This document shows positions 18,455-60,900 of a DNA stretch of 64,000 nucleotides, in pieces. Source of the stretch: Marchantia polymorpha subsp. ruderalis. Its lineage: Eukaryota > Streptophyta > Marchantiopsida > Marchantiales > Marchantiaceae. Numbering within the stretch: position 1 is the stretch's first letter; each line of letters starts with the position of its first letter. Position numbers and translations under genes: made by a program. A model generated the notes under the pieces. That model did no database searches and was not told the DNA's origin. It was given only the letters and a program-made list of their open reading frames with translations. The stretch is taken from positions 3,948,501-4,012,500 of the forward strand of contig AP031352.1 in assembly GCA_037833965.1 (NCBI GenBank). Direction: 5' to 3'.

Positions 18455-21400
18455 TTGATAATATCACACTCTCCATTTCACCATAAAGTGTGATATAAAC
18501 AAGGTATGACATTTTTGATAATATCACATTTTGAAGATTTGTGCATAATGTGATATTATAAAAAAATAGGTAAAAAATCGAAATAAAATTACAATGTAAA
18601 TAAGAAAATAACAAATGTAAGGTTTCAAAGTTTTTGAATGCAAAATATAATTCAAAACTCGGAATGACAACAAGAGCACATCATAATGTGTCATTGCAAT
18701 CCGGTAGAGAACTCTCACTAGTAACAAAGAAGTATCTAATGTCACATTGTTTTAGCGATGTTACATGTTCAACACCAATTCTAATGAGGTTGTCATGGAT
18801 TTTTTCCATTCCAAACAACTCTTGAGTGTTGAAAATCTTAGAACCTTGGCTAGCCATAAAATTCAAAATATCCTTAGCATATACATGTGCCTCGCTTAGC
18901 TTCACTACTTTATACTCATCATCATTGCTATCAACAATCATTGAGTTTTCTTCCATGGAATCAAGTATCTCTTCGCCATCTTGCACTGATTGCATAAGTT
19001 CCTCAGTAGAATATTCCATCTCAAATTCATCTTCAACTTCCATGTTTATGTACTCCAAAGGACTAAACTTTTCTATAAGCTTGCCTTCAACATATAAATC
19101 CAAATTCAATGCGGCAATGAGATTGCTTAATTCCAAAGCTGCTTCCTCTATTTTGGACTTCATACTTTCATCAGAAATGTTTATATCTGCATTCCACTCT
19201 GTAGGCAATATGGCAGACTTTGTCCAACAATTTTTGATGGTTTGATCATTTAATTCATGCCATGCCACCACAAACCATAACATTGATTGAAAGAGATCAA
19301 CATTTAGTTTCTCCAAATTTTCATCTAAGTTATCAATTTGTTGCGTAGTCCAGGCAACAAGCTTGCGCTTAAAGTACATTTTGAATGCTGCAATCGCTCC
19401 TTGATCCAAAGGATGAATAATTGAAGTCACATTTGGTGAAAGTAACAAGATAGTGATATGGAAGAGTAAAAAAAATTTAAACCCATCTATAAATTTCTTG
19501 AGCTCATCATAAATATCATGGCTTTCTGCATTATCCATAATAATGCAAAACTTTCTATTTTGCAATGTCATTTTTTGGTTCTCACTCTTCACCCAATATG
19601 TAAAAACAACACCATCCAAGATGAATTGTTAGAATAAAAATGTACTACACCATTTGGATTGAACGCGCTGATTTGTGAATAAAAACAAGGTTCAATCACT
19701 CCTTCTTGAGATGTTATTGCAAAGCTACAATGTCACACGATCCTTTTCTTCTTAATTCCTTTTGCCTTCCCAGTATTCAAAGTCTTGCTAGATGAGGCTC
19801 TGTAACACAAACCTGTCTCATCAAAATTGAAAATGTCTTATGTATCGTATTTCTTTAATATGAATGGGATCTTTGCCATGGCCAATGCAACTCCAACCTC
19901 ATTTGCATCTCCTCTTTCTCCATGCAAATAATAACACTTAATTCCATGTCGAGTTTTGAAATTTTGCAACCATGCATGAGAAAGCTTGAACTCAGTGTCG
20001 CATATGCCAAATGAATCACTCAATTTCATAGCCTTGTGCATAATGACATCATCAGTTACAACTTCCCTTCGTGCCCTAACTTGTCCAAACTATAAAACCA
20101 AAAGCTTTTTTAACTTTAGATCATTTTCCAACTCGAACACGTCGCACATTGACTTCACGCACAAATATATCCACACTTAGCCACTTCTCTTTTCCACAAA
20201 GAATTTTGGAAATAGTGGTTTGATCCACAAGCCTGAATTTATGTTGGTCCACCATGAACTGTGTGAGATCTTCTTGTTTCAAACTAGGATGAGCTTTGTG
20301 TACTTCACAAATTTTCTTCTTATCAGAGGTTGATAAATCCATACTTTTGCGCGTGGATTTACTTACCATTGGAAGTACCTGGATCTGCCAAACCATTTCA
20401 CAAAATGAGAACTCAATATAAGTCATCATGATAATTGAGCAAAACGAGTGCATTCAATTGTTTCAGCAACAACTTTATTCATGTGTTATCACAAATTCAA
20501 CCAAAACAGTTAATGCGATCAAAATAGGGAACACACTCAGGTTTGATCGCTGGTTGTCTAGCCAGAGGCAAGTGAGTGACTGCGAGGATTTTGATTTCCT
20601 TGTGGATTGGCATACCAAAATTGAGAACTCTGATGTGAGGCCAACCTCCTACAAATGCACCAGCATGCAGATGCTCAAAAGACCATGAAAGCGATATCCA
20701 CAGAACACATCGACTCATACTCTCTTAGAAATTCTGAAACATGGAACTTTAAATTGAAAACCACACAACACTCCTACTCATCCAAAAGCACACTCATCCC
20801 CATAACCATATTCCAAACAACCATCTTCAGAAAAGAAACTTAGCTCCCACTTCAAAGAAACGAGCTTGAAACCACAAACTTCGAACTGTATCAAGCTCAT
20901 TAGAAGAGGCAGAAATTAAAACTATCAACATCATCAATCCAGATAACATCCCAATGATGTGCTCCCATCATGCTCATGATCCGAAAAAGAACCGAAATTT
21001 CTTGCACAAATGGAATACATAATAAGTTAGAGTTGAGAGTGGGCTTCAGCTCTCACCTGGTGCAGTTGCGACAGTGTGTCTACTCACGCAGTGCCTTCGG
21101 ATGCTGGAGGTGCATGTCCACTCAAGCTGGTCTTCTTGTTGCTCCGACTGCAAGTGCCGAGAGTGAGGCAAGTTCGAATACTGTTGATCGAAGCAAGCGC
21201 CGTCAAAAACTTTCTCTTTATTTTGTGTAAGATCGAAGCAACAACAAGATGCATCAAACCAAGTACCTAAGCAATGACAACTTTCTATAATTGTGAAACA
21301 CTACGTCTTTCTTTAGGTACACTGTAGTGTGAGTACTCAACCTTAGATAAACGAAAAAGACACCATGTTGATATAGTAAATGTCCACGAAACTAAAATTT

Positions 21401-26363: not shown

Positions 26364-29300
26364 TCATTCCATGCCAACCACAACCTTCATGACCTCTACA
26401 GCCACTTTAGCCCACTCCAACTCCGGTATGTCGTCGCTCATGGATGGCAACTCGATGCCCAAAATCTGACTCAGCTCCTCGATGTCGCTAACAAGGGGAC
26501 CTTTGGAAGCCTCCTGGTCGCCGACCACTTCTTTGATGGCCTTCAATTCCCCTCTGAGTTGTCGCTCTTCCTCGTCGCGCACCTGTGCGCACAGCAAAAG
26601 GAAATCATCGAAAAATAGAAATTCAAGATTCGCTCTCCGGTGGTACCTATCTGGAATTAAAAAACGAAGCACGTAACAGATACACATTAATGGAGTGATA
26701 TAAGAAATAATCTACAGTAGCAATGCAATATCAATAGGCAACATTATTTCCCTAAATCTTCATGTAACTGTTGGTAGTTCACATGATTCATTGAGGGCAT
26801 ATTCGATGCTGTTACCTTTGTGCATATAATGTTGGTGGTGATGGTTGATTCAATTTTTCAGAGGTTTGACTTATCTTGGCTTTCATATTTTTCTTCCCTG
26901 GTGTATTTACAAAACGTTTAGAGCGACGGTTTCCAGCCTTCGTTCCCATCTTGGAACAAGAAAAGGCTCTTGATTTGATTGCGGGGAGTGCTCAGAGGGA
27001 TGGGGAGTAGAGGAACGGCAGACAAAAGGGCAACACAGCCGCTCGGGGCTGGGGTGACCTAACAGACCTGTGGTGGTCTTCGAAATAGTCTCAATCTGTG
27101 CTGGTTTTGCGCCTTTGCGTGGTCAACTGGCGAGCATGCCTGGAACTCCTTTCCACGCCAAAACTGCAATAGCTGGGCAAACTATACTGGTTGTCAGAGC
27201 CCTGGTTCGATTGCATAGCAGTGATTGCATAGCGCTGGTGTGCAGAGGTTCGAGAAAGCAGGAAAACCACTCTCATTTACGCGGGATGCCCACTCAAGCT
27301 CTGAGCTTGTCTCCAATGAAACTCAGAGCTTCAGTGAGTAGATCTCAGCCTTCCTCCCCAGATGGGTTGTACAGGAAAGCTTAGTCATGGAGCACAGGCG
27401 TGGGGCTAGGTAAGAGAAAGGTGAAGGCATTTAGAGGAAAGATGTTTGGGCTGCAAGTACAAAGCTGAACAGAAACCACTCCAGCAAAAACTTAAGACAC
27501 AATCCTCTCCCCAAATTCAGGGGTGACGCACACTGTCCTCAATTCTGCAGATTGTCAGCACAGATCATGTATTCGTATGTTTCTTGAATCCTCCGTTCGA
27601 GCACGATCCATATTTAGTATCAAACTACTAGGAAATTTGAATCCTCTCATCTGTAGCTAGGTACAACGACCACCCACACATGAGAACCAACAGCATTTTC
27701 TGAGAACACAGAGTCCACTCTCAACATAGTCAAAAGCAATCTGGCTGGAAAAGCAGAAAAAAGGCTGAAAACCGCTAAGATTGATTCACCAAGTATAACA
27801 TGAAGGTGGCCTACTCAGAACTCGCTCGTATTCATGATTTAAATAAAGTACACCGTTGCAGCATCTGATGTGTATGCACACTACCATAGTCTGCAACGAA
27901 ATTCTTTCACCCTCAAGGAACATTTTTTATAACTCCTAGGTGAGATCAGCAAATATATTGTAGTACCATATAATTATTGTCTCACTATGACTCTGACGAA
28001 ACGTGGACCTACCCCTGGAAACATAAGTAAGCTGAGAATGGACACAGAAATGAGTTGTTAGTCCATGATTTACATGTTCCACATAACTAGATAACTTGCT
28101 CAGATTCCGCAACTCAAAACTGCGCGCCTTTTCATCACATTTTCACCTCACAAAATTTGATGAACACGAGGAAGCCACGTCCAAGGAAGGTCATTTACAG
28201 TGACCATAGCACAATCAGAAACTAAAAACTGCCCTGCCAAACTAAGCTCTTCATCAAAGGAGAGAGGGAAACAAGATTTTTCATGTCAAGATGCAACATG
28301 ACCGTCTGTCAATAAGTCGTTGTCCGTATCAGATTTTTTCTCTTGATCAAAAAGGTGTCTAAGCTAAGTCTGCAGGGAGAGGCAATTTTAGATTCTGGAC
28401 ATGGAAACGCATTGAGAATGTAGTGGGAACAATCTCTCGCAGTTTAATCTCATCGCAGCATTGGGGTGTCCACGCTGGTATGAACACAGGGCATGGAACG
28501 AGTTGGACATCTCTCTGGGTCTAGTTTTACTGTTTTTCCTTAGAACGGACTTTCGAATTGCGGGAACTAGACTACCAAGTATGAACTCGATTCCACAATT
28601 CTTCAACGAGGATCTATGACCAGAAAAGGCAGACCTCAGCAACTGCCACGATTAATTATGACTTAAGAGGCAAGACTTTCTGAGCCAAAATTGATTTGAA
28701 AACTTCGATATGAACAGAGTAATGAAGCAATAGGTTGCACTACTTACAATCCAAGCAATCGTTAATACACTTGACCGAGAAATTAAATTAAAACAAACAT
28801 ATCAAATGAGAACAAATTTTCTGAGTCTGTCAGAAGCAATTCAAGCAAGGACGACGATAATACCTGCTGCAAATGTAATTGTTCTTCGCTGTCATACATG
28901 TCCTCGGAGAAAGATATTGCTGATCTGCTCCCTTTCATCATCCCCGCTGTCTCTTCCGATGCGTCGGAATCGTGAGACGTAGTAGAAGGAGGGCCGTAAG
29001 CCTCTTCCTCGGAACCGGAAGATGCTGAACAGGATTCTTCTTCTCGAGTACCGGTGGTAGGAGTCCGAGCAATTTCACCCGTGTCTTTTCGGGCCGGAGC
29101 TTCTGAGTGCACCTCGTAATTGTAGCCATCCTCATCCTGTAAAGACGAGTTATAGCGATCATATTGTTCACCATCAAAACCTTCCACTTCTCTTAAGGAT
29201 TGCGCCTTTAAACTGTGTTGGTTTTCCTTGTCTTGGAAGTCTATTTCTTTCTCCGACCGGGGTGCTTCGAAGGAAGCGTCTGAAGTTGATTCAAAGTATT

Positions 29301-30567
29301 CATGGTCGGATGCAGACTCGTCGAGCCGGAGCATATTCAACGATCCGTATGTCGCAGGAGCCGATTCTGGACGACATGCTCCAGACGTGCTCACTGTTTT
29401 CAAACTCGACACACTTCGTTCTGGACTTGATACTCCCGGATGAACTGCACATGATTTCTCTGAAGTTAAATCGTCCAATCTATATTCAATTACTGCTGCT
29501 AATTTATCTTCATACACTTCACTCGCGTCGTTATTAAAATTCTTCTCGCTCTCAACTCCCTGCTTTCCTCCAACCCCTTCACCGGAATTTGTACAAGACG
29601 CATCAGGATTCCCACTCCTCTCCTCGCACTCACTAATCCTATTCTCGAAAACACCCTCGTGCTCTCTCGCTTTCTCGCCGTCAGCGCTCGAGAAAGTGTG
29701 GTCGAAGTCGCCCGCCAGAACCGCCACCAGATCGTTCACTGCAGCTCGCTCCTTCTCTCCATTCACAACATGACTGCCTGAATTGAAAGCCACAATGATC
29801 GAGGGGTTCTTTTCCTCGTCATCGCGGACGACGCCGTAGGTGTCAGAAATTTTCGGGACGGTTCCAACGAACTGCCCATCTCCGTTTTTCTCCTGCTCCG
29901 TATCGTCGGCTCCTTGCACCAGACGCGAATCCACCATCAGTTCCGTGTGCTCGTCTTCGTCGAGAACGCTCAAATCTTCGGCATTGCAAAATTCTTGCTC
30001 CTGCTCGTCGTCGTCGTCGTCCTCCACGCGGGCACGAGTCTCGGCGCGGCAATCATCGCGATCGACGAGCGTCAGGGGCGATTCCGCCGAGGCATCGGAC
30101 GGGGCCCTCGGAGCCTCGAGCTTCTTGCAGGGGAATTGGCGATCAGCGTCGTCCTTGAGAGCTCTGGCGAATTTGGACACGGTGCTGACGACGACGGCGT
30201 CGAACTCCTGATCCACGACCTCGAAGGTGTCGATCGAGTCCACGTCCTTGCGCAGCAGCTCGAGGAGCGTGAACCCGGCGGAGCGCGACGAGGGAGGCGC
30301 CACCGAGGCGGAGGACGTTGAGGAGGTGGAGAGGGAGCGGCCCGCCCCCGCGCCCGCGCCTCCAGGCAGGTAACGGTAGAGCATGGTGGCATGGCGCTGC
30401 AGGTAGAAGAAGCCCGCAATTGCGCAGACCAGCGGCAGCGCGAACGTGAAGAGCAGCACCGCGAGGATGAAGACCGATGGCAGCAGCACCGGCAGCGTGC
30501 CCAGCACCACGATCCCAACCGCAGCGTACTTGCCCGCCCGCCACAGCTGCTCTCGCACTTCTCTCAT
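26364..30567 (-). CDS. Plant-specific membrane protein with long acidic disordered region
   Basis: Two exons, 30567-28864 and 26582-26364, are separated by a 2.28-kb intron with clean donor and acceptor in phase 0, giving 640 residues. Residues about 13-56 form one long hydrophobic block broken by prolines (VLGTLPVLLPSVFILAVLL then FALPLVCAIAGFFYL), which suggests two close membrane helices or a hairpin. From about 75 to 565 the chain is rich in Glu, Asp and Ser, of low complexity and probably disordered. Exon 2 encodes a compact C-terminus (EEERQLRGELKAIKEVVG, then EELSQILGIELP, then WAKVAVEVMKVVVG). That layout recalls Arabidopsis proteins such as At1g07330 and At2g29620, with both ends conserved and the middle free; the comparison is from memory. 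Function unknown. An in-frame TAG upstream with no ATG after it supports this start. Confidence 0.75.
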
Positions 30568-30647
30568 CGCCGCTGCTGCTGCTGGTGCTGCTGCTCGGCC
30601 GCTTTCCGGCGCTTCCTCCTACGTGGCGGCCTGCGTTTCCCGATCAT
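30564..30647 (-). promoter_or_regulatory. Upstream ORF whose stop overlaps the main start codon (ATGA)
   Basis: An ATG at 30647 opens a 27-residue, Arg/Gln-rich reading frame whose TGA (30566-30564) overlaps the ATG of the membrane-protein gene (30567-30565). If the transcript starts upstream of 30647, main-frame translation would need leaky scanning or reinitiation. The CAG-type trinucleotide run at about 30571-30598 encodes the Gln-rich end of this uORF. Confidence 0.55.
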
Positions 30648-38983: not shown

Positions 38984-41900
38984 CTAATCTCCACGTTGTC
39001 CACTATCCTTCACTGATTGCACTATTTGAAGTTTCTTTGTTGATGATTTCTTCCCATTCGAGGTCGTCTTTACGGCCGAACCTGGTTCTTCCATTTGAAT
39101 ACTCTTCGCAAAATTCATTTCCCGTTCTTCTGTCACTAATCCCTCTGCTTGAGAACTCCGTCTAGATGATTTCGACTTCCTTGTGGTCGTCCGAACGCCC
39201 TGTTCTAAGGGTTGCCTATTCATAGTAGGATTCACTTCCCATACTTCGGCCACCAATCCAATCTCTGAGTGAGAACTTCTGGATGACTTGGATTTCCTAG
39301 TAGTCGTCCGATGGTCTTGTACTTCCGTCGGAATATCCTTCAGAGAATTCACTTCCCGATCATCCGTCACTAGTCCCTCTGCTTGAGAACTTCTGGATGA
39401 CTTCAATTGCCTAGTAGTCGCCCCATTGTCCTGTTCTCCAGTTGGAGTATCCTTAAGAGAATTCACTTCCCGATCATCGTTCACCCATCCCTCTGCTTGA
39501 GAACTTTTGGATGACTTCGATTTCCTGGTAGACGTTCGATGGTCTTGTTCTTCCAATGGAATATCCTTCAGAGAATTCACTTCCCGATCACCGTTCACCA
39601 ATGCCTCTGCTTGACATTTTCTGGATGACTTCGATTTCCTGGTGGTCTTCCGATGGTCTTGTTCTTCCGTTGAAATATTTTTCAGAGAATTCATTTCCCG
39701 ATCATCGTTCACCAATACCTCTGCTTGAGAACTTTTGGATGACTTCGATTTCCTGGTAGACGTCCGATGGTCTTGTTCTTCCGATGGAATATCCTTCAGA
39801 GAATTCACTTCCCGATCACCGTTCACCAATGCCTCTGCTTGAGATTTTCTGGATGACTTCGATTTCCTGGTAGTCGTCCGATGGTCTTGTTCTTCCGTTG
39901 AAATATTTTTCAGAGAATTCACTTCCCGATCATCGTTCACCAATCCCTCTGCTTGAGAACTTTTGGATGACTTCGATTTCCTGGTAGACGTCCGATGGTC
40001 TTGTTCTTTCGATGGAGTATCCTTCAAAAAATTCACTTCACGATCATCGTTCACAAATGCCTCTGCTTGAGATTTTCTGGATGACTTCGATTTCCTGGTA
40101 GTCGTCCGATGGTCTTGTTCTTCCGATGAAATATTTTTCAGAGAATTCACTTCCCGATCATCGTTCACCAATCCCTCTGCTTGAGAACTTCTGGATGACT
40201 TCGATTTCCTGGTAATCGTCAGATGGTCTTGTTCTTCTGAAGAAATATTTTTCAGAGAATTCTCTTCCCGATCATCGTTCAACAATCCCTCTGCTTGAGA
40301 TCTTCTGAAGGACTTTGATATCCTGGTAGTCGTCCGATGGTCTTGTTCTGCCGTTGGGATATCCTTCGTAGATTTCACTTCCCGTTCATCGTTCACCAAT
40401 CCCTCAGCTCGAGAACTCCTCGATGACTTCGACTTCCTCGCAGTCGTCCGATGGCCTTGCTCTTCCGTTTGCAGATCCTTCAATAAATTCACTGGATTTT
40501 CTTCGTTCACCAAACCCTCTGCTTTGGAACTCCTTTTGGATGATTTAGACTTCTTTGTACTCGTCTGATCGTTCTCAGTATCCTCCGTTACCCCATCATC
40601 AACCCCATGTCCACAGTCCGCAGACTGTGCCTCCTTTGGAGATATAGAATCTCCATTCTCAACTTGTACACCAGCATCACCAGGTGACTTATTAGCAAGA
40701 GAACATAGTTGCTCCTTTACGTGCTCTTCCAATATTATACCTGCAATGAGATCGAGTTGTTAGGGTGCTACCGACAAATGATACAAGATGCTCGAACGAA
40801 TCGTATGCCAGCAGTGATCTAGAACCATCTCCTTCGCAAGGACCTCTACCCTCCTGAAACACATGCTTCGGCTTGGATGTGATTTGACAGAATCTGGTAT
40901 ACACACAAAGCTAAGGTACCCGTCAGGTGCATGCACAATGGCCACCCGGAAAGCATCGATGTGACACGTCCAAAATTTTACTTTCAATACTGGAAAACAA
41001 TCACTGCAAACTGGCGGATTACCATAATAAACTTCTAGAACACTACTGATGCATGGAAAAGGTGGGAATTTGAAGAAGGATTAGAGGCCGAACTGTAGAA
41101 GTTTCAATACATACCTTAAAGCTTTCCAACTAGGCTATATATGTAAACCAAAACCTCTCCGACAGAACCCCAAGCACTGCTTGCTAATTTGAAGGGCATT
41201 CATCAGAACGGCACGTTTCCTACTCCATGTCAAGCTTTTAAGACCATTCCACTCCAAGTCAATTGACATTCATCGTGACTGAGAGCGACAAAATACCTAT
41301 AGCCCGTAGAGCTGCTGGTGTAAGACAGTTGTATAGGGAGTCCTCTTTACATGTATTCACACGCACGGTCCCGAGTTCCTTCAGTGCGAGCATTAGTCTC
41401 TGCACAATCACAGAAGGTTAACAAGGTCAAAGGTTGGTAAGCATTATTCCTCCACATATTGTACAAGCAAATTTTACGAGATGCAATGTCTTAACATTGG
41501 AACCATTTTCAAAGTTCAATTGTGTTCTGAACTATTGTATTGATGTTTTCGCTCAGGACAAACCTCAAGCTTCTTAATGTGTATCTCAAACCTGAAGTCG
41601 GGCATGAAAATCGACAGTGCCATTGATTAATTGATTAATTAATAACTCTCCACAACTCATGGCTTGTCGAGAACAAAATAGTTACCAGATGTGGTCCCCG
41701 AAGAGATTTCACCCACTGCGCATCCTCGCTCTCCATATCGACCTTATCAGTTTCTCTAGTTTTCCTGAACTTCCGCCTTTTTTTACCAGAAGATTTCTCT
41801 CTACATCCCGTCCCAAACTCTTTATTTCTGTCGACATTGTTCACTTCGAAATGGACTCCGTTCGTATCATAAATTTTCTTCCCAGGTCTTTGGAAGGTTT

Positions 41901-42327
41901 CCAACTCTCCGCCAGAATCATCCACATTTCGTTTTCTCTTCCGCTCCCGAGCGGATTGACTAGTCCCTTCGTCAGCTGCTTCTTCTACATCAGCGGCACC
42001 AGCGACGCTGGGTTCGTAGTCACCATCAGATTCCATCTGTTCCGCTTGCTCATACTCCTCAGAGGTCACTGACACATTCTCTGCCTGCAAAATCTCATTG
42101 ACTTTCCGTTTTCCCTTCGTCTTCTCATAACTTAATGTCCGCCTCGCACTGACAGCCTCGTCAGGTGCTTCCTTCTCCTCTTCTTCATCTTCTTCTGCTT
42201 CGTTTCCAGCTTCTCCCCCGTAAGAAGGCACCCAATTCGCGTCAGACTCGACCTCCTGGCCGTTCCTTCCATTCTCGCCACCTTCAAACCGGGCGTATAA
42301 ACCGTCATGGTCATCGTCATCATCCAT
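38984..42327 (-). CDS. Unrecognised 862-residue protein with ~13 tandem 38-residue repeats
   Basis: Four minus-strand exons, 42327-41686, 41399-41297, 40989-40903 and 40740-38984, join in consistent phase and give 862 residues. Residues 1-200 are acidic then basic (MDDDDDHDGLYARF at the start; RERKRKRNV and KKRRKFRKTRE clusters look like nuclear localisation signals). A compact, non-repetitive core of about 90 residues spans all four exons (AQWVKSLRGPHLRLMLALKE, then CLTPAALRAIVLKVKFWTCH, then FRVAIVHAPDGYLSFVCIIL). From about residue 340 to 834 there are about 13 tandem copies of a Ser/Lys/Asp/Glu-rich 38-mer, with RKSKSSRSSQAEGLVNDDRE as the most regular part. I do not know the family. A chromatin or nuclear role is a guess from composition. 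The large ORF is certain; the small exons 2 and 3 rest on splice sites and phase only. Confidence 0.7.
39070..40555 (-). repeat. In-frame coding minisatellite, ~13 x 114 bp
   Basis: The last exon of the 862-residue gene contains tandem units of 114 bp (38 codons). Inner units are nearly identical, and the outermost ones (first, second, twelfth, thirteenth) are the most diverged. Units in the middle alternate between a type with SRKSQAEALVNGDREVNSLK and a type with SKSSQAEGLVNDDREVNSLK, giving a 228-bp higher-order period. Confidence 0.93.
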
Positions 42328-45109: not shown

Positions 45110-48100
45110 TTAAAGGTAATCTGCGTGAAGTATCAACTCTGTGTAATCCTTCTCTGATGCCAAGCCTTGGTCCACCCGGTACTGAGCCAGAATCAACTTT
45201 TGTTTCTTCTTCGCGTATTCTCCACCTCTATCCCTTTCCCTATACTCAGTCCTCTCTCCAAAATTTTGCTTATAAAGTTTTGCAACATGACCTCCTTGGT
45301 CCAGCATAAACTGTCTCGTGTTTCTCTCTATCTCCATTAATCCTTGCTCCACCTTTTGTACACCCCAGTGAAGAGCTTTCGGGTGCACCTTTATTAATTT
45401 CGCACAAACTCGAAGAACGATATAGTACTCTTCATGAACAGGTCTCAGATCTTTATCTGACACTTGGATCTTATATCTAAGGTACACATTCTCTGGGAGT
45501 CTATCCTTCCTCATGGGTTGTAGACAGGAAAATCCAAGCTTCTTCATCTCCTTCATCAAAGTCTGCAATTCTCGTTTTCGTACAAAGCTCCCATTGTCCT
45601 CTGAAGCGTATTGATCTACCATTTCGGAGTCGCTACCTTGGACTTTATCACGATCTATTGCATCATACTGTCCCTCCTTGGCTTCCCCCGAGGGTTTTGG
45701 CCCAACACCATCATCTCTAAAATGTCCATCATTTAATGTCATCCTAGACTGATACTTATTTCGCGCACCTGCGACACTTCCCACACTGCCATACGTCCGT
45801 GCTGGGTACCTTAAGTTGTCATTTCTGCCTTCCACGTCGACATTGTCACCTAAATTACCTTCTAAATCTTCCCCAGCGTTCATTGCACTTCGTAAATTGT
45901 TCTCGGCTTCACCTGGCTGTTTGTTTGCTGTTGCCTGAACCGAACATAAGATTATTAGATAAAGCTGGCAAGTCCTCATATAGAGGTTTCAGAACTTCCA
46001 GTATCAATTCAGTTCGATTTTTGTCAAGCAGTGAGGGCGGACAGGTTAAGATAGGTGAAAGTATTACACAAAACAAGAAAAGAGAGAAATGTGTTGGGTC
46101 AGGAAGGACCTCATTTGCCTTCTCATAAACTTTCCAGAAGTGATCCCGCATAGCTTCCTCGTCGGCATCCGAGGCTGGCCCGGGATAGATGACTTCACGA
46201 CAGTAATTCAGGTACGATGCTAGCTTTCTCTCTGGGTCTCCCACTGCCATAACACACATCATGCAGTACATGGATTACATACAATACTGACACGAGCAAA
46301 CATTCTTCTGTAAGAAAGTGATTCTAATCGCAAGATGCGATATACATAACAGCCATCGGTGATAAGAGGCGCACCTATTACAAAATTCATGAACCTCTCG
46401 AAGATTGTGATCAGGGTTACATGACTAACACCCACTACTGCAAAGTCTTCACTAACACAGCAATCTCCTTGCAACTAATAGACCTCCATAAGAGCTTCTT
46501 GGACTCTAAACATTTCAGATCAGCCTGCGTGCTGGTGGCCTATTTTGAAGCCTCAGGTGGACTCACGGACCGCGAACTTTGTAAGCAACACCTCAATGAG
46601 CAAACTATGAAACTGCATCATCTTAACAGTGTAGTTCTATCATAACCTGTCTGCATTTTCAACTTGAAAGTCGCAGGTGTAATTATGGCTTACTTTCATT
46701 TATTTTATTTCGAAAGGGCTTCATCTTCTTCATACACATTATGAGTTTCTTCACATCCCAGACCTCCTCAAGTTCGTTGGCTTTCCCTGATGCCAAATCT
46801 GCAACTGAATTTATGTCTTTCTCGTCCATGCCATTCTTTTTTTTCCTTTGAGAGGTGACATCCGCCTCGGAATAATATCCTCCATCCGAATCGACTTCCT
46901 TGTCGTCCGGAGAATCATTACCTGCTCCCTGACTATCTCTGTTGTTAAAAAAGGTCTCTCCGTTCATTGCATTTGGTGCTGCTTCGCTGTCAGAAATCGG
47001 ATTCTCGATGCGACCATCAAGCTTATACAGCACCTTAAGTACAATGATGATCATTGCCATAACGTATACTCTGGTGGGCAAGGCACTCTCTTTAGAAGTG
47101 AGCCATAGCCCTGCAGGGCAATACCACTCGTAAATCCGATGTGTATATACAGAGAGTTTCTCCACAGGAAGCTTCATTGCATGCAAAAGTCGAGCACTCA
47201 GTGCATGGTAATTGACAGGAGAAAGTTGAAGACCTATTCTCTCTGCAATGTGTCCCGCAAGAAGTTCGACTGCTCTTGCTCCGACCACATTTCCTGGCTT
47301 GAACATTGTCTTTGGTTCTATAGGAAACGTCTGCCAAATCAGGGAAATGACACGGGTCAAGCTTAAGTACGGAGGAGACAGTAATGAGATATGACCAGAT
47401 ATACCATGATAAACACAGTCTAAATATGCTGCAGGCCTAAAGACTTGGTCCTTTAACATCCAACTAACTGAACATTGCACAGCACAGAGTACAATAATTG
47501 ATGAGAACATTCCGAGATATTGAAGACAGAGTGAGCAGGCTTAACTCACAAAGTTTTATGCTTTAATTCATGTACGAATCGGTTGCAAAGGTGGCACACC
47601 TGTAAGCCGCCTACAGTGTTGGGGATGTGGTTCGCACTGGGTTTTGAAACCTCCAAATAAGCAGCCAGAAAAGGCAACTTCCCTTTCAAAGCCCAAAGTC
47701 TTATATCTGTCGGAAAAACACTCTCTCTAGCGATATAACAAGCCAAATAACAGAAGGCCAAAGTTATGGAAAGAGGAATTCTCTCCTTCAGTGCACTAAG
47801 CCATACAAATCGGGCCTTCCTGCCAAAGGTTGTACGTGGCTCGATTCCACCTTTCCTCCTTCGCTGTCTCCGCTTTCGAGGTTTTTTAGGCCGAAGGACC
47901 CCTCTCTCCAAAACCATTGACTCCTCAGGTACTTCTGGTTCTGGATCAGCTTCATTCTCTGAGTAGTGAAGAAAGCTTTATTAGTCACTGTGATCATACT
48001 ATGTCTATGCTCAAAATGGTATGATTGAGTATTTGGATTAGAGGATGGATGTGTCATTAAGGAGAAATATGTTTCCATACAACTGACCTCTAGATACAAA

Positions 48101-48884
48101 TACCACATGATTAACAGAAAATACTGAATGAAATTCGGACTTTTGCTCACAACAAAAGCTCAGATAAAACACCTATCTCACCCTATGCCTCATACTCGAT
48201 GGTAAGAATTAAGCCACCTTTGAAAACTCGACGCCGAGAACCCTTGCGCTTACTCTCACGATCTTCAGCAACTTCGAGGGCTTCATCTGCCCATGCTTCC
48301 TCAAACACTCGAGTGGAAGCCAGGTATCTTAACCAGATTGGCCCCACTATTCCACAAATTAAGGGAGTTACGTCGAACTCCTTCACTAAAGCCTCGCACT
48401 GAAGAAACAAAATTTTCTGAATGCCCTCGACATAGGACTTTCTAATACTATTGGACAACGTTTCTTTATCTATTGGCTGCTGTCTCTGTGACTTCTGTGA
48501 AGCCAGACCGAATTGAGAGCTTAGCAGTTGGGAAGCCTGAGAAGGCCCAGCTCCGGATCCCGCTCCAGATCCAATCCCATAGACAGATCCGTACACATCA
48601 CCAAGAGGAGACTGACTTGCGAGTCCAGGAGGCGGTTGGGAAATGAATGCTTGTGATCCTGCGAAAATCTCCGGTGGAATCTGTGACTTTACTTGTTCCT
48701 CATTCTGAGATGCTCCCACTCGAGTCTCTCTTACGAATCGAGCAGTGAAGACATGAGCATCATCATTATCAAAGGCCTCCTCGATGTAATTCTCATTCTG
48801 GGCACCACAGCTTTGGCAAAAGTAAGAACCATCCACTCCAGTTGTCATGTCTGCGCTGCCGCAGACCTGACACCATGATGACAT
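45110..48884 (-). CDS. TAF1B: TAF1B/Rrn7-like RNA polymerase I initiation factor
   Basis: TFIIB-related core factor for rRNA gene transcription by RNA polymerase I in the nucleolus. Five minus-strand exons, 48884-48218, 47958-47600, 47330-46694, 46243-46110 and 45934-45110, keep phase across every junction and give 873 residues. The N-terminus carries the zinc ribbon C5-x2-C8 and C23-x2-C26 (WCQVCG and FCQSCG). A Ser/Gly/Gln-rich linker follows (about 70-140), then the first cyclin-like fold (SIRKSYVEGIQKILFLQCEALVKEF, in part). After a Lys/Arg-rich stretch comes the second helical region (LSITLAFCYLACYIARESVFPTDI, in part, through LPVEKLSVYTHRIYEWY). The C-terminal third is charged and less typical. 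The layout fits the plant Rrn7/TAF1B group, though the sequence identity is from memory. The start ATG sits three codons before the first zinc-ligand pair. Confidence 0.85.
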
Positions 48885-50200
48885 GTCTCTTGAGTTTTCG
48901 GCCTAACTGGCCCTCTGTCCGACTCAACCTTCAAGCGGATCCAAAAAAATTTCTTGAGAGACGCCTCATCCGATATCAGTGTCGTCTATGATGCTGTCGA
49001 CTGCAATCAGCGTTGGTGCCACAGAACATAAACATGTTCAAGTGAGTCAAATATGTTGTAGAGGAGATTTGATGAACTCAGTATTTCAGACAAAGCTATA
49101 GGGCTGCATTTCCTCTTTCCCTTCCAAATTATGCTGGCCTCCTTTTTCAAGACACTAGTTACATCACCGGATGGGTTCATAAAAGAACTACCTCGCAAAA
49201 TTGAAACCAACAGTGTCTTCGCTAATAACACGAATACAGAGAGGCTAAATGACTCGGGAAGAATGGAGTTCGATACAGAGGATGAGGCAACTACAAGACC
49301 TCAGCTGGAGAAGAAACAGGAATGCGACTGAATTCTGTAGAATTAAACGACTCACCTATTTCTATTTACACAGTCCCTCGCAATGTACACACCAAGACAC
49401 GAGCATTGTCTAGCTCATATAACAGTCGCCCGCCATGGGGCTCACTTCAGTTCTACATTGGTTCTAAAGAAGGTGGCATTCTCGCAAGTGAATGCATATG
49501 AGTTGAGAAATCCCGTAGTTAAATTCAGGTTGTCACTACAAAGTAGACCTCGACTTGATTTCGTAAGAAATCCATAATCCGGAAAGTTGAGAACGCAAAC
49601 GTAGTGACTGCATAGAAAGCGACTCCAAATTGTCAAAGAAAATATGTTTGTAAGTGAGAAGAATGTCTGATGATACTGACCTCAATTTAACCCCGGTGGG
49701 TTCAAAGCCTTGAAATTGATCCGTCCTGTCGACCTTCTTCAACACACCATCATCCTTCTCAAAGTTCAGTTTCTGAAGGACCACCAGAAATTGTTCAATG
49801 TACAGTTCAAGAATTGAAACCTGCACTGAACTTTACGTAGCGTGAAAGCAGTACATTTATACATTTTGTACATCGTAAGTCCTACAAATCTTCCTCCTAT
49901 TTCTAATTTAACTTGAAGGGATCATAAATGTCTGCCACCACGTTCTTCACAAACCCTAAACCCTTCAAAAACCCCTAGAGTAGCAGAGTACGATATCGCC
50001 CTTTGCCTTTGCTTTTACACAGTCGGGTACAACCACTACAAATCTACGCCGGGCCCGTCGTTACACGCACGATGAGCTGAAGCAAACATCTCTGGTCGTC
50101 CTTAGATTCCGATTCAACTGTTATAAACCTTCTCGACTTTCCTAAATTGGCCTGGTCGCAGGGTGTCCAAGCACGAAATGGTTCAAGTTTCTAAACAAGC
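48885..50200. other. Upstream region of the TAF1B-like gene, with a possible minus-strand exon pair
   Basis: A plant telo-box (AAACCCTAAACCC) lies at 49951-49963. On the minus strand, an acceptor near 49808 opens a frame (VSILELYIEQFLVVLQKLNF and onward) to a GTCAGT donor near 49682. It can join in phase at an acceptor near 49594 to a second frame ending at 49442. The total is about 90 residues with no recognised family and no initiator exon, so I leave it as a candidate only. Confidence 0.35.
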
Positions 50201-57917: not shown

Positions 57918-60900
57918 ACCAGTTCATTTGATCTCCACATCTTCTGAAAGCTTGTTAACGAGGCATACCATTCGCTTCATTTTGTTTACAATGCAGTTTA
58001 AAAAATCCCAGCATCACGTTAACATCACCATTATGAAAGTAAAGTAAAGATGATGTATGTTTGCAGCCGCGTGAATCTAATTGCATTCTTTAGTATTAAT
58101 TTGTATCTGCATGCAATATGTAAATTCATCTAAAATTTGGATTTGTCCAATAAGAGCAGGTTTCGATTTTTTGATGTGTGCATTCATTTTTGTAGTTCAT
58201 ATAACACAGGTTTAATTCATGTTCATATATGTAATTTTTTCTGGATTCGATAAGAGTTATTGTTTAACTAACAAGTTATATATTTTAAGAGTCATAATTC
58301 ATCATTTTTTCATTGGAATGTACCCATATTTATGTTTGATTTGTAAATTTGTTTGATTTAGGAATTTTCATTTGCAATAGCAGATTCATGAGGGAGTTTA
58401 TCTTCAGAAAATCGATGAATATTTAAAGTTTGATACTGAAATTATTTTTGTATGTAGAAATTAGAGCATGATTAGTTTTATATTTCTTAAACATAAACAG
58501 GAGCTTGACTTGGATGAAAAGAATTTTCGCCACATAGATCGGCAATATTTGGTACTACGATCACCGGTAGCCTAGCTGAAGAAGTACAATGTAAGACCTA
58601 GTTGGCTCTGATATCTGACCCTTTTGTGTCAGATGGGGTTCCATACACGATGCTTGCACCAGATCACATATTAAAGACAGATTTAGAGCAATTCTTATTT
58701 TTTTCTGTTTAGAGCTTTCAAATGTCTTCCGTCCACGTGAATGTCTTCTTACTTCAATTTCATGGTCTTGATACGATGTGTTTATGAATGAACAAAATTC
58801 CTGCTCTTATGTAACCAGCCACCTGCTCTTTCTGATTCTGAAAATTTTACAGGCGTCAGTAAGACACACCTCTGTGAAGAAGGACGAATTTTTTTACTCA
58901 AATTTTACAACTTTGTACTCTAATCTCGTGAAACTATTATGATAGGAGATTATAAATTCTGCAAAACCTTGCCTTTCAAAGTTTGATCCTAAAAGAACCT
59001 GGGTTCCTGAATAATAAATTCCCATCAGTCTGACAAGAGAAAGCATTTGGGATACCTGTAGATGTCATGCAATCCATCAAGATCAAAATCCAATATTGTA
59101 CGGTTATCCTGAGCTCACTAGGAGAAGCGATAGAAGACATAGATTTTAGAAGGTAGTAATTAATGTTGATGACAAGTTTCCGGGATGTATGCATGAGACA
59201 TATGATAAATGGCTCAGTTCACTAAGAGCCAGTTCTCGAACTGAGCTGCTGTTTTGTAATGTGCACTCTGCAATACTCATTGTCATGATAAGTAGGTGGA
59301 AGTCCTCGAATGTTGAATATGAACCAGGTTTCAAGTGCACAAGAAGGAATGAGGGTTGCCACCGTGCTGGCAAAGGCCACCTAGAGATATCAAAGTGACA
59401 CACTAGAACTGACCCCTTGCACACTTGAAAGCCGTTTCCGATTGCGATCATAGAATTTATTGATTCTCAAACTTCATTAGTTCCAAGTACTTTTCACCCT
59501 TCGGGTTCCTGACGATACCTTCGGCTGTTTATTTGCCACACCTCGGTACAATTCCTTCGGGACGACTCCCCAACTGCGTGTTGTTTTTTGGTGGGCAATG
59601 TTGATGCATATGACAGGACTCGCGGCCTACGAACTGCACGACATACAGGTTATCAGAATCGTATAAGATCGAGTAAAATGTAAAAGATTGTCCAGCTGTA
59701 TGTGATAAGGCTTCATTCTGGAGAAACTGCAGGCGACGTCTCGTTTGATTTCGACTAAACTTTCAATGGATTATCGGTAAGATATCCATAAATTCACCCA
59801 CCGATGTCCTAAACATCAGCACGACAATGGTATATTCATGCCAGTGGTGCCAACTGCTCTTTGTCAAACATCTTCAAAAGATGTTGCATGCATATAGCGA
59901 AGCAGTGGCCGGAGACAGTACGAGAGGTGATGTCCCATAATATCAAACCCTTTGCAAGCACTGGCATAGACAAACCATACGCGCACGCAACATGTCAGAA
60001 TGTCACGAGCTAGATTATTTGGAGTAGAAAGGAGTCGTTTGTAAATGAAGTGGGATTGTCTGATCTGTAAGCAGTCAGACTCAACAAGTTTATTCTTTGC
60101 CTTATGAATCATCGACGATAGTTTTAGCTATCGCAAGATTATCAAAACCATGAATCAAGCATTGGGTTATTTCGGGATTTTAGGTGACATTACTCTGTAT
60201 TCCGTTTTGGATATTTCATTTCTAACAAGGTGATTGATGCTAGTGTCGTCGGTTACACTGGATGAACTGACAAGAGCACTCTCTTTTCCTCACTTTATTG
60301 GTGCAGACAGATCAAAAGCATTGGTTATTTCAGGATTTCTTTCTTGTATATTCACTCTGTAGGTGATGCACTGGTGCAAAGGAGTCGCTGTTTGGTGAAA
60401 AGACAAAAGACATTTCTTAAAGACATTGACGATCTTTTTTCACCACGTGAGATTGTTCCTACCAATCGCATGATGAGAATCTGATAGAATTGCATTGTAC
60501 AAATACTTCGAAATTGAATTTCAATATAAGGAAACAGTTCTTTAAAGCTTTTGGCCAGTTGGAGACAAAAGCAGAGCCACTCGTGTCCTCAAGCTCAGCA
60601 GTTACAAACCTTTTCAAGATTGCGGCTGAACCAAAAAACTTTGCATGCTACAAATTCCATCTTTTGCGATCTTCAAGATTGCGGCTGAACCAAAAATTGT
60701 TGCATGCTACAATTTCTATCTTTTGCGAGTGCAGGTTTTTTCGCTGTGACTTCCTCACGAACATTGATGAACAAGGATGATTGACGCCCCAATTGAGTGA
60801 GGAAATGTGAGTGCTTTTGTTAGTTCACACTAAGTCAATAAATTGTACAGCTAAATCGTACCTGATTGCCACTGTGTCTAGTGGAATACTAGCGTGTAAT

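Follow-up and report, generated by a model that had tools for sequence, protein, structure and literature searches.

A predicted gene of Marchantia polymorpha subsp. ruderalis carries a coding minisatellite with a dimeric higher-order period

The locus and its predicted gene

The window, that is, the whole stretch of 64,000 nucleotides analysed here, corresponds to C3:3948501-4012500 in a 9-contig assembly of 241 Mb. An exon of an auxin response factor locus in this assembly, located through a family search, matches PDB chain 6sdg_A, which is M. polymorpha ARF2, over 72 residues and is identical to it at all but the two end positions; this agrees with an origin from M. polymorpha or a close relative. 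On its minus strand we predict a gene of three exons (42327-41686, 41399-41297 and 40740-38984, joined) encoding 833 amino acids plus a stop codon, with GT/AG splice sites and phases that fit across the exons; this gene model is a prediction of the present analysis. Its features, in window coordinates and with a slash at each exon boundary, are as follows:

41686..42327, minus: predicted exon 1, 642 bp; first ATG at 42327, open reading frame (ORF) closed upstream by an in-frame stop; donor CATCTG/GTAACT
41297..41399, minus: predicted exon 2, 103 bp, RLMLALKELGTVRVNTCKEDSLYNCLTPAALRAI; acceptor TTGTGCAG/AG, donor GCTATAG/GTATTT; phases fit both neighbours
38984..40740, minus: predicted last exon, 1757 bp, carrying the array and the stop codon; acceptor CTCATTGCAG/GT
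39062..40552, minus: 13-unit array, each unit 114-117 bp (38-39 aa) long, with consensus KSKSSRSSQAEGLVNDDREVNSLKDIPTEEQDHRTTTR, from Tandem Repeats Finder (TRF), unit alignment and frame count
40436..40552, minus: edge unit U1, 39 codons, with an additional basic codon just past KSKSS
39524..40207, minus: U4-U9, three 228-bp dimers in which subtypes A (U4, U6, U8) and B (U5, U7, U9) alternate, from unit identities, fixed sites, lag scan and unit tree
39062..39178, minus: edge unit U13, 39 codons, with an additional basic codon placed as in U1

The exon 1 product (beginning MDDDDDHDG...) is acidic and contains two basic clusters, RERKRKR and GKKRRKFRK, which by eye resemble nuclear localisation signals and make the protein probably nuclear. 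Charged residues make up 37% of the array and serine 16%, and its net charge is near zero; this composition suggests a disordered segment. No credible family was found in Pfam, NCBIfam or PDB sequences for the parts of the protein searched: phmmer returned nothing from PDB sequences for exon 1, for the last exon or for the exon-junction piece, and a DUF4158 match of that junction piece (12.3 bits versus a cut-off of 27.4, E 0.16) was set aside. The results thus support the preliminary description, which had spoken of a nuclear-looking protein without a recognised family. A search of the 64-kb window against Rfam at gathering thresholds returned no match.

The upstream gene (45110-48902, minus) resembles TAF1B/Rrn7, a Pol I initiation factor: the ORF at 46686-47540 matches Rrn7_cyclin_C at 33.1 bits (cut-off 22.4), and that at 48186-48902 gives weak Zn_ribbon_RRN7 and Rrn7_cyclin_N matches, both under cut-off. 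Elsewhere in the window lie a transposase fragment at 18684-19628 (minus; DDE_1, 55 bits versus a cut-off of 22), presumably of the pogo/Tigger type; a 611-aa open frame at 28786-30618 (minus) that, judged by eye, is hydrophobic over a stretch close to its start and otherwise acidic, and for which no Pfam family scored above cut-off; and a 59-bp tandem duplication at 60613-60728 (2.0 copies, 91% matches).

Structure of the array and its dimeric period

TRF reported a single array at the locus, with a 114-bp period, at 39085-40531 (12.6 copies, 82% matches). Reading the minus strand in the register set by the KSKSS motif divides 39062-40552 into 13 in-frame units, which bears out the coding minisatellite of about 13 units described earlier and slightly corrects its boundaries. 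The 38-residue unit given in that description applies to ten units, U1, U12 and U13 having 39 codons; by eye, the final seven codons of U13 seem non-homologous. The coding frame contains no stop in any unit, as had been claimed, versus 12-40 in each of the other five frames (plus frames: 22, 12 and 18; minus frames: 0, 40 and 18). The array-bearing frame is open for 591 codons, and 25 residues follow the array at the C-terminal end. With a unit that is a multiple of three and lies inside the open frame of a predicted spliced gene, the array is an intragenic tandem repeat. In a comparison sample of 18 10-kb stretches (180 kb, too small for a rate), counting arrays with a period of at least 18 and at least three copies, TRF found three arrays, the largest with 4.0 copies, and one of the three was fully open in some frame (18 bp, 3.9 copies).

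Inner units resemble each other more than the edge units do, in agreement with the diverged edges proposed earlier, and the centre is organised in pairs. Identity is 95-98% among U4, U6 and U8 and 91-97% among U5, U7 and U9, versus 86-91% between adjacent units within U4-U9. Six of the 22 variable sites in U4-U9 are fixed between subtypes A and B and alternate perfectly, confirming that two subtypes alternate centrally; four of the five separating codons alter the amino acid (codons read by eye). The 15-residue sequences previously quoted for the subtypes fared less well, each having an exact copy in one unit (U7 and U6), with U5 and U9, and U4 and U8, off by one or two residues. In sliding windows, identity at lag 228 is 88-100% from about 40230 to 39750 and exceeds that at lag 114 throughout, so that the dimer period spans about 40230-39520.

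When unit order was permuted, a difference between lag-2 and lag-1 identity at least as large as that observed arose in 28 of 20,000 permutations for U2-U11, 411 for U3-U10 and 47 for U4-U9 (a range picked after data inspection); over all 13 units the count was 1,310 of 20,000, which is not significant. The unit tree groups U5, U7 and U9 with support of 0.98 and U3, U4, U6 and U8 with support of 0.90. The A/B alternation and the lag-228 identity together support the earlier proposal that the centre grew through copying of 228-bp pairs. An in-frame minisatellite with a dimeric higher-order period is a real feature of this predicted gene.

At the DNA level, no second copy of the array was found in the 241-Mb genome, the array matching itself only. 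Because these genome searches pass over very common words and score only the top candidates, a single locus here means that no other match was found. A protein-level search gave one further match, C7:4238659-4239195 (E 0.005, 29% identity, 4 internal TGA), which we set aside as a relative because it sits in a different, 120-bp array with stops. That array, near 4.238 Mb of C7 (9.4 copies, 95% matches), carries stops in almost all of its units in the three frames read, those of the minus strand, and contains, in six frames, no ORF of at least 100 aa wholly within it; on those three minus frames it is a counterpart in which the frame is not kept. In a literature search, the titles among the matches listed named neither the gene nor a Marchantia pangenome, a statement about those titles and not about absence from print.

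Selection on the units and rival readings

We estimated omega under a codon model with our own script, on a FastTree topology with relative branch lengths fixed; the test presumes a tree, and units may exchange sequence. Omega was 0.527 over all 13 units (2dlnL 8.85, p = 0.003), 0.55 with the tail of U13 masked (p = 0.007), 0.547 without U13 (p = 0.009) and 0.506 without U12 and U13 (p = 0.008). For six mostly outer units (U1, U2, U4, U11, U12 and U13) it was 0.43 (p = 0.0006), for U2-U11 0.616 (p = 0.15) and for U4-U9 1.418 (p = 0.58), the last indicating no detectable nonsynonymous deficit at small power. Third-position excess was likewise absent from U4-U9 (16, 16 and 10 deviations at positions 1, 2 and 3), and the pairwise ratio was 1.45 among A units, 0.70 among B units and 1.34 across the two subtypes. 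Relative to the consensus, the units carry 54.6 synonymous and 120.4 nonsynonymous changes; neutrality expects 43.9 synonymous changes, and the observed number was reached in 2% of runs. Neutral simulation along the unit tree predicted 6.5 stops, with none in 0.7% of runs, and simulation on a star predicted 6.3, with none in 0.2%; none is observed.

Stop avoidance and omega together indicate that, on average, the frame and part of the sequence have been kept, and the young core shows no sign of constraint. The preliminary description had taken the open frame to suggest selection on the protein and had pointed to dN/dS between units; this holds for the 13 units as a whole and not for U4-U9, making the case weaker than first implied. 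The best-kept block of the unit appears to be KSKSS, where 4 nonsynonymous changes stand against 11 synonymous ones (ratio 0.12, versus 0.40-1.41 in the other six segments); when derived codon types are counted once each, the values are 0.16 versus 0.44-1.09. A Fisher test of KSKSS versus the rest gave p = 0.0006 for a block selected after data inspection, and circular-window scans were borderline (555 of 10,000 for 5 codons, 191 of 10,000 for 7 codons).

These mixed signals leave some room for a neutral passenger, possible although less likely than a working segment, in which the array sits in a tolerant tail, its frame kept only against truncation or alteration and its unit sequence without a function of its own. 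The omega of 1.42 in U4-U9 and 0.62 in U2-U11, the four of five A-versus-B codons that change the amino acid (by eye) and the borderline KSKSS scans are what this reading would expect. It fits poorly with omega over all 13 units (0.53) and over the six mostly outer ones (0.43), and with the retention of KSKSS through 11 synonymous changes; moreover, with only 25 residues past the array, there is little downstream to shield from truncation.

Two readings give the unit a specific biochemical identity. The array could be an S/T-Q cluster domain, its SQ repeats serving as ATM/ATR-type phosphorylation sites of a DNA-damage scaffold: it holds nine SQ, with a maximum of three per 100 residues, which reaches the definition given in a passage of PMC10942620 (at least three S/T-Q within at most 100 residues). 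However, one ancestral SQ copied along explains that count, SQ is absent from 4 of the 13 units and all 3 changes at the Q codon are nonsynonymous, so we regard this identity as improbable. Descent of the units from a DarT ADP-ribosyltransferase fold would account for a Pfam score of 45.8 bits over the whole last exon (cut-off 22.5, E 7.5e-12) and for 20.6 bits from U6 and U7 jointly (E 0.0004, under cut-off). Yet the whole-exon score arises because a short resemblance sums over copies: none of six single units tested (of 13) gave any match at E up to 10, nor did U6 when searched by itself, NCBIfam scored 23.8 bits versus a cut-off of 150, and the best-matching stretch spans 42 of the profile's 201 positions, short of a full domain. 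We therefore reject DarT homology, which is almost certainly wrong.

A model for the array and its significance

The account we favour, and consider reasonably probable, places a coding minisatellite in the final exon of a gene whose product is probably nuclear, probably disordered and of unrecognised family, and gives the array the following origin and action. The extra basic codon common to U1 and U13 suggests an ancestral unit of 39 codons. This 117-bp unit would have multiplied via unequal exchange or replication slippage, the inner copies losing one codon; at a later stage, copying of a 228-bp A+B dimer would have produced three dimers. As the least certain part of the account, the array may act as a flexible multivalent segment in which the element repeated is a serine patch of basic character (T-R-K-S-K-S-S) that is probably phosphorylated and gives way to a more acidic stretch, with unit number setting valence or length; exact count and the residues between motifs would then be loosely constrained. 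A bolder version, in which a lineage-specific nuclear scaffold uses the tandem T-R-K-S-K-S-S phospho-motif to set condensate or chromatin-contact valence, and in which gains and losses of 228-bp dimers adjust that valence from accession to accession, strikes us as quite unlikely.

Like other coding minisatellites, the array is exonic, has a unit that is a multiple of three and has inner units more similar than its edges; unlike them, it has a two-unit higher-order period in its centre and is open in one of six frames. Nopp140 and Treacle contain alternating basic and acidic serine-rich segments. The protein here is similar in alternating such segments but, by eye, has no long acidic serine runs, its charge blockiness is not significant, and neither protein was matched in Pfam or, by sequence, in PDB. 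Both are nucleolar, and a passage of PMC9106583 reports that mitotic phosphorylation diminishes their alternating charge blocks.

The closest working model is the repeat region of Ki-67, which passages of PMC8354752 describe as a nuclear, mostly unstructured protein with all its tandem repeats in a single exon, the repeats differing in sequence and number between vertebrates; in the human protein, 16 repeats of about 120 aa, marked by a conserved 22-aa sequence, are accompanied by FHA and LR domains. Our array shares the confinement of its repeats to one exon, in a protein that is nuclear and disordered by prediction, but comprises 13 units of 38-39 aa, and Pfam searches of exon 1, of the spliced N-terminal 311 aa and of the last exon gave no match to an FHA domain, Ki-67 repeat or LR domain; homology is not claimed. 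Droplet formation by Ki-67 repeats increases with repeat number and charge blockiness, according to a passage of PMC9106583. Charge blocks here are not significantly stronger than in column permutations (fraction 0.091; ten 38-aa units), so the blockiness part of the analogy is unproven. Most likely, by analogy, this multivalent segment behaves to some extent as the Ki-67 repeats of a single exon do, without kinship.

Overall, this looks like a common kind of feature in an uncharacterised gene, and a fairly ordinary repeat-bearing protein. Variation in copy number between individuals, suggested earlier, is plausible, the present reading coming from one genome; since the main generation of the host plant is haploid, array alleles could be read directly. 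The locus clearly illustrates how a coding repeat can combine old, divergent edges with a young core duplicated pairwise. Should unit number prove both variable and consequential, the gene would make a simple system in which to study how repeat number affects a disordered nuclear protein.
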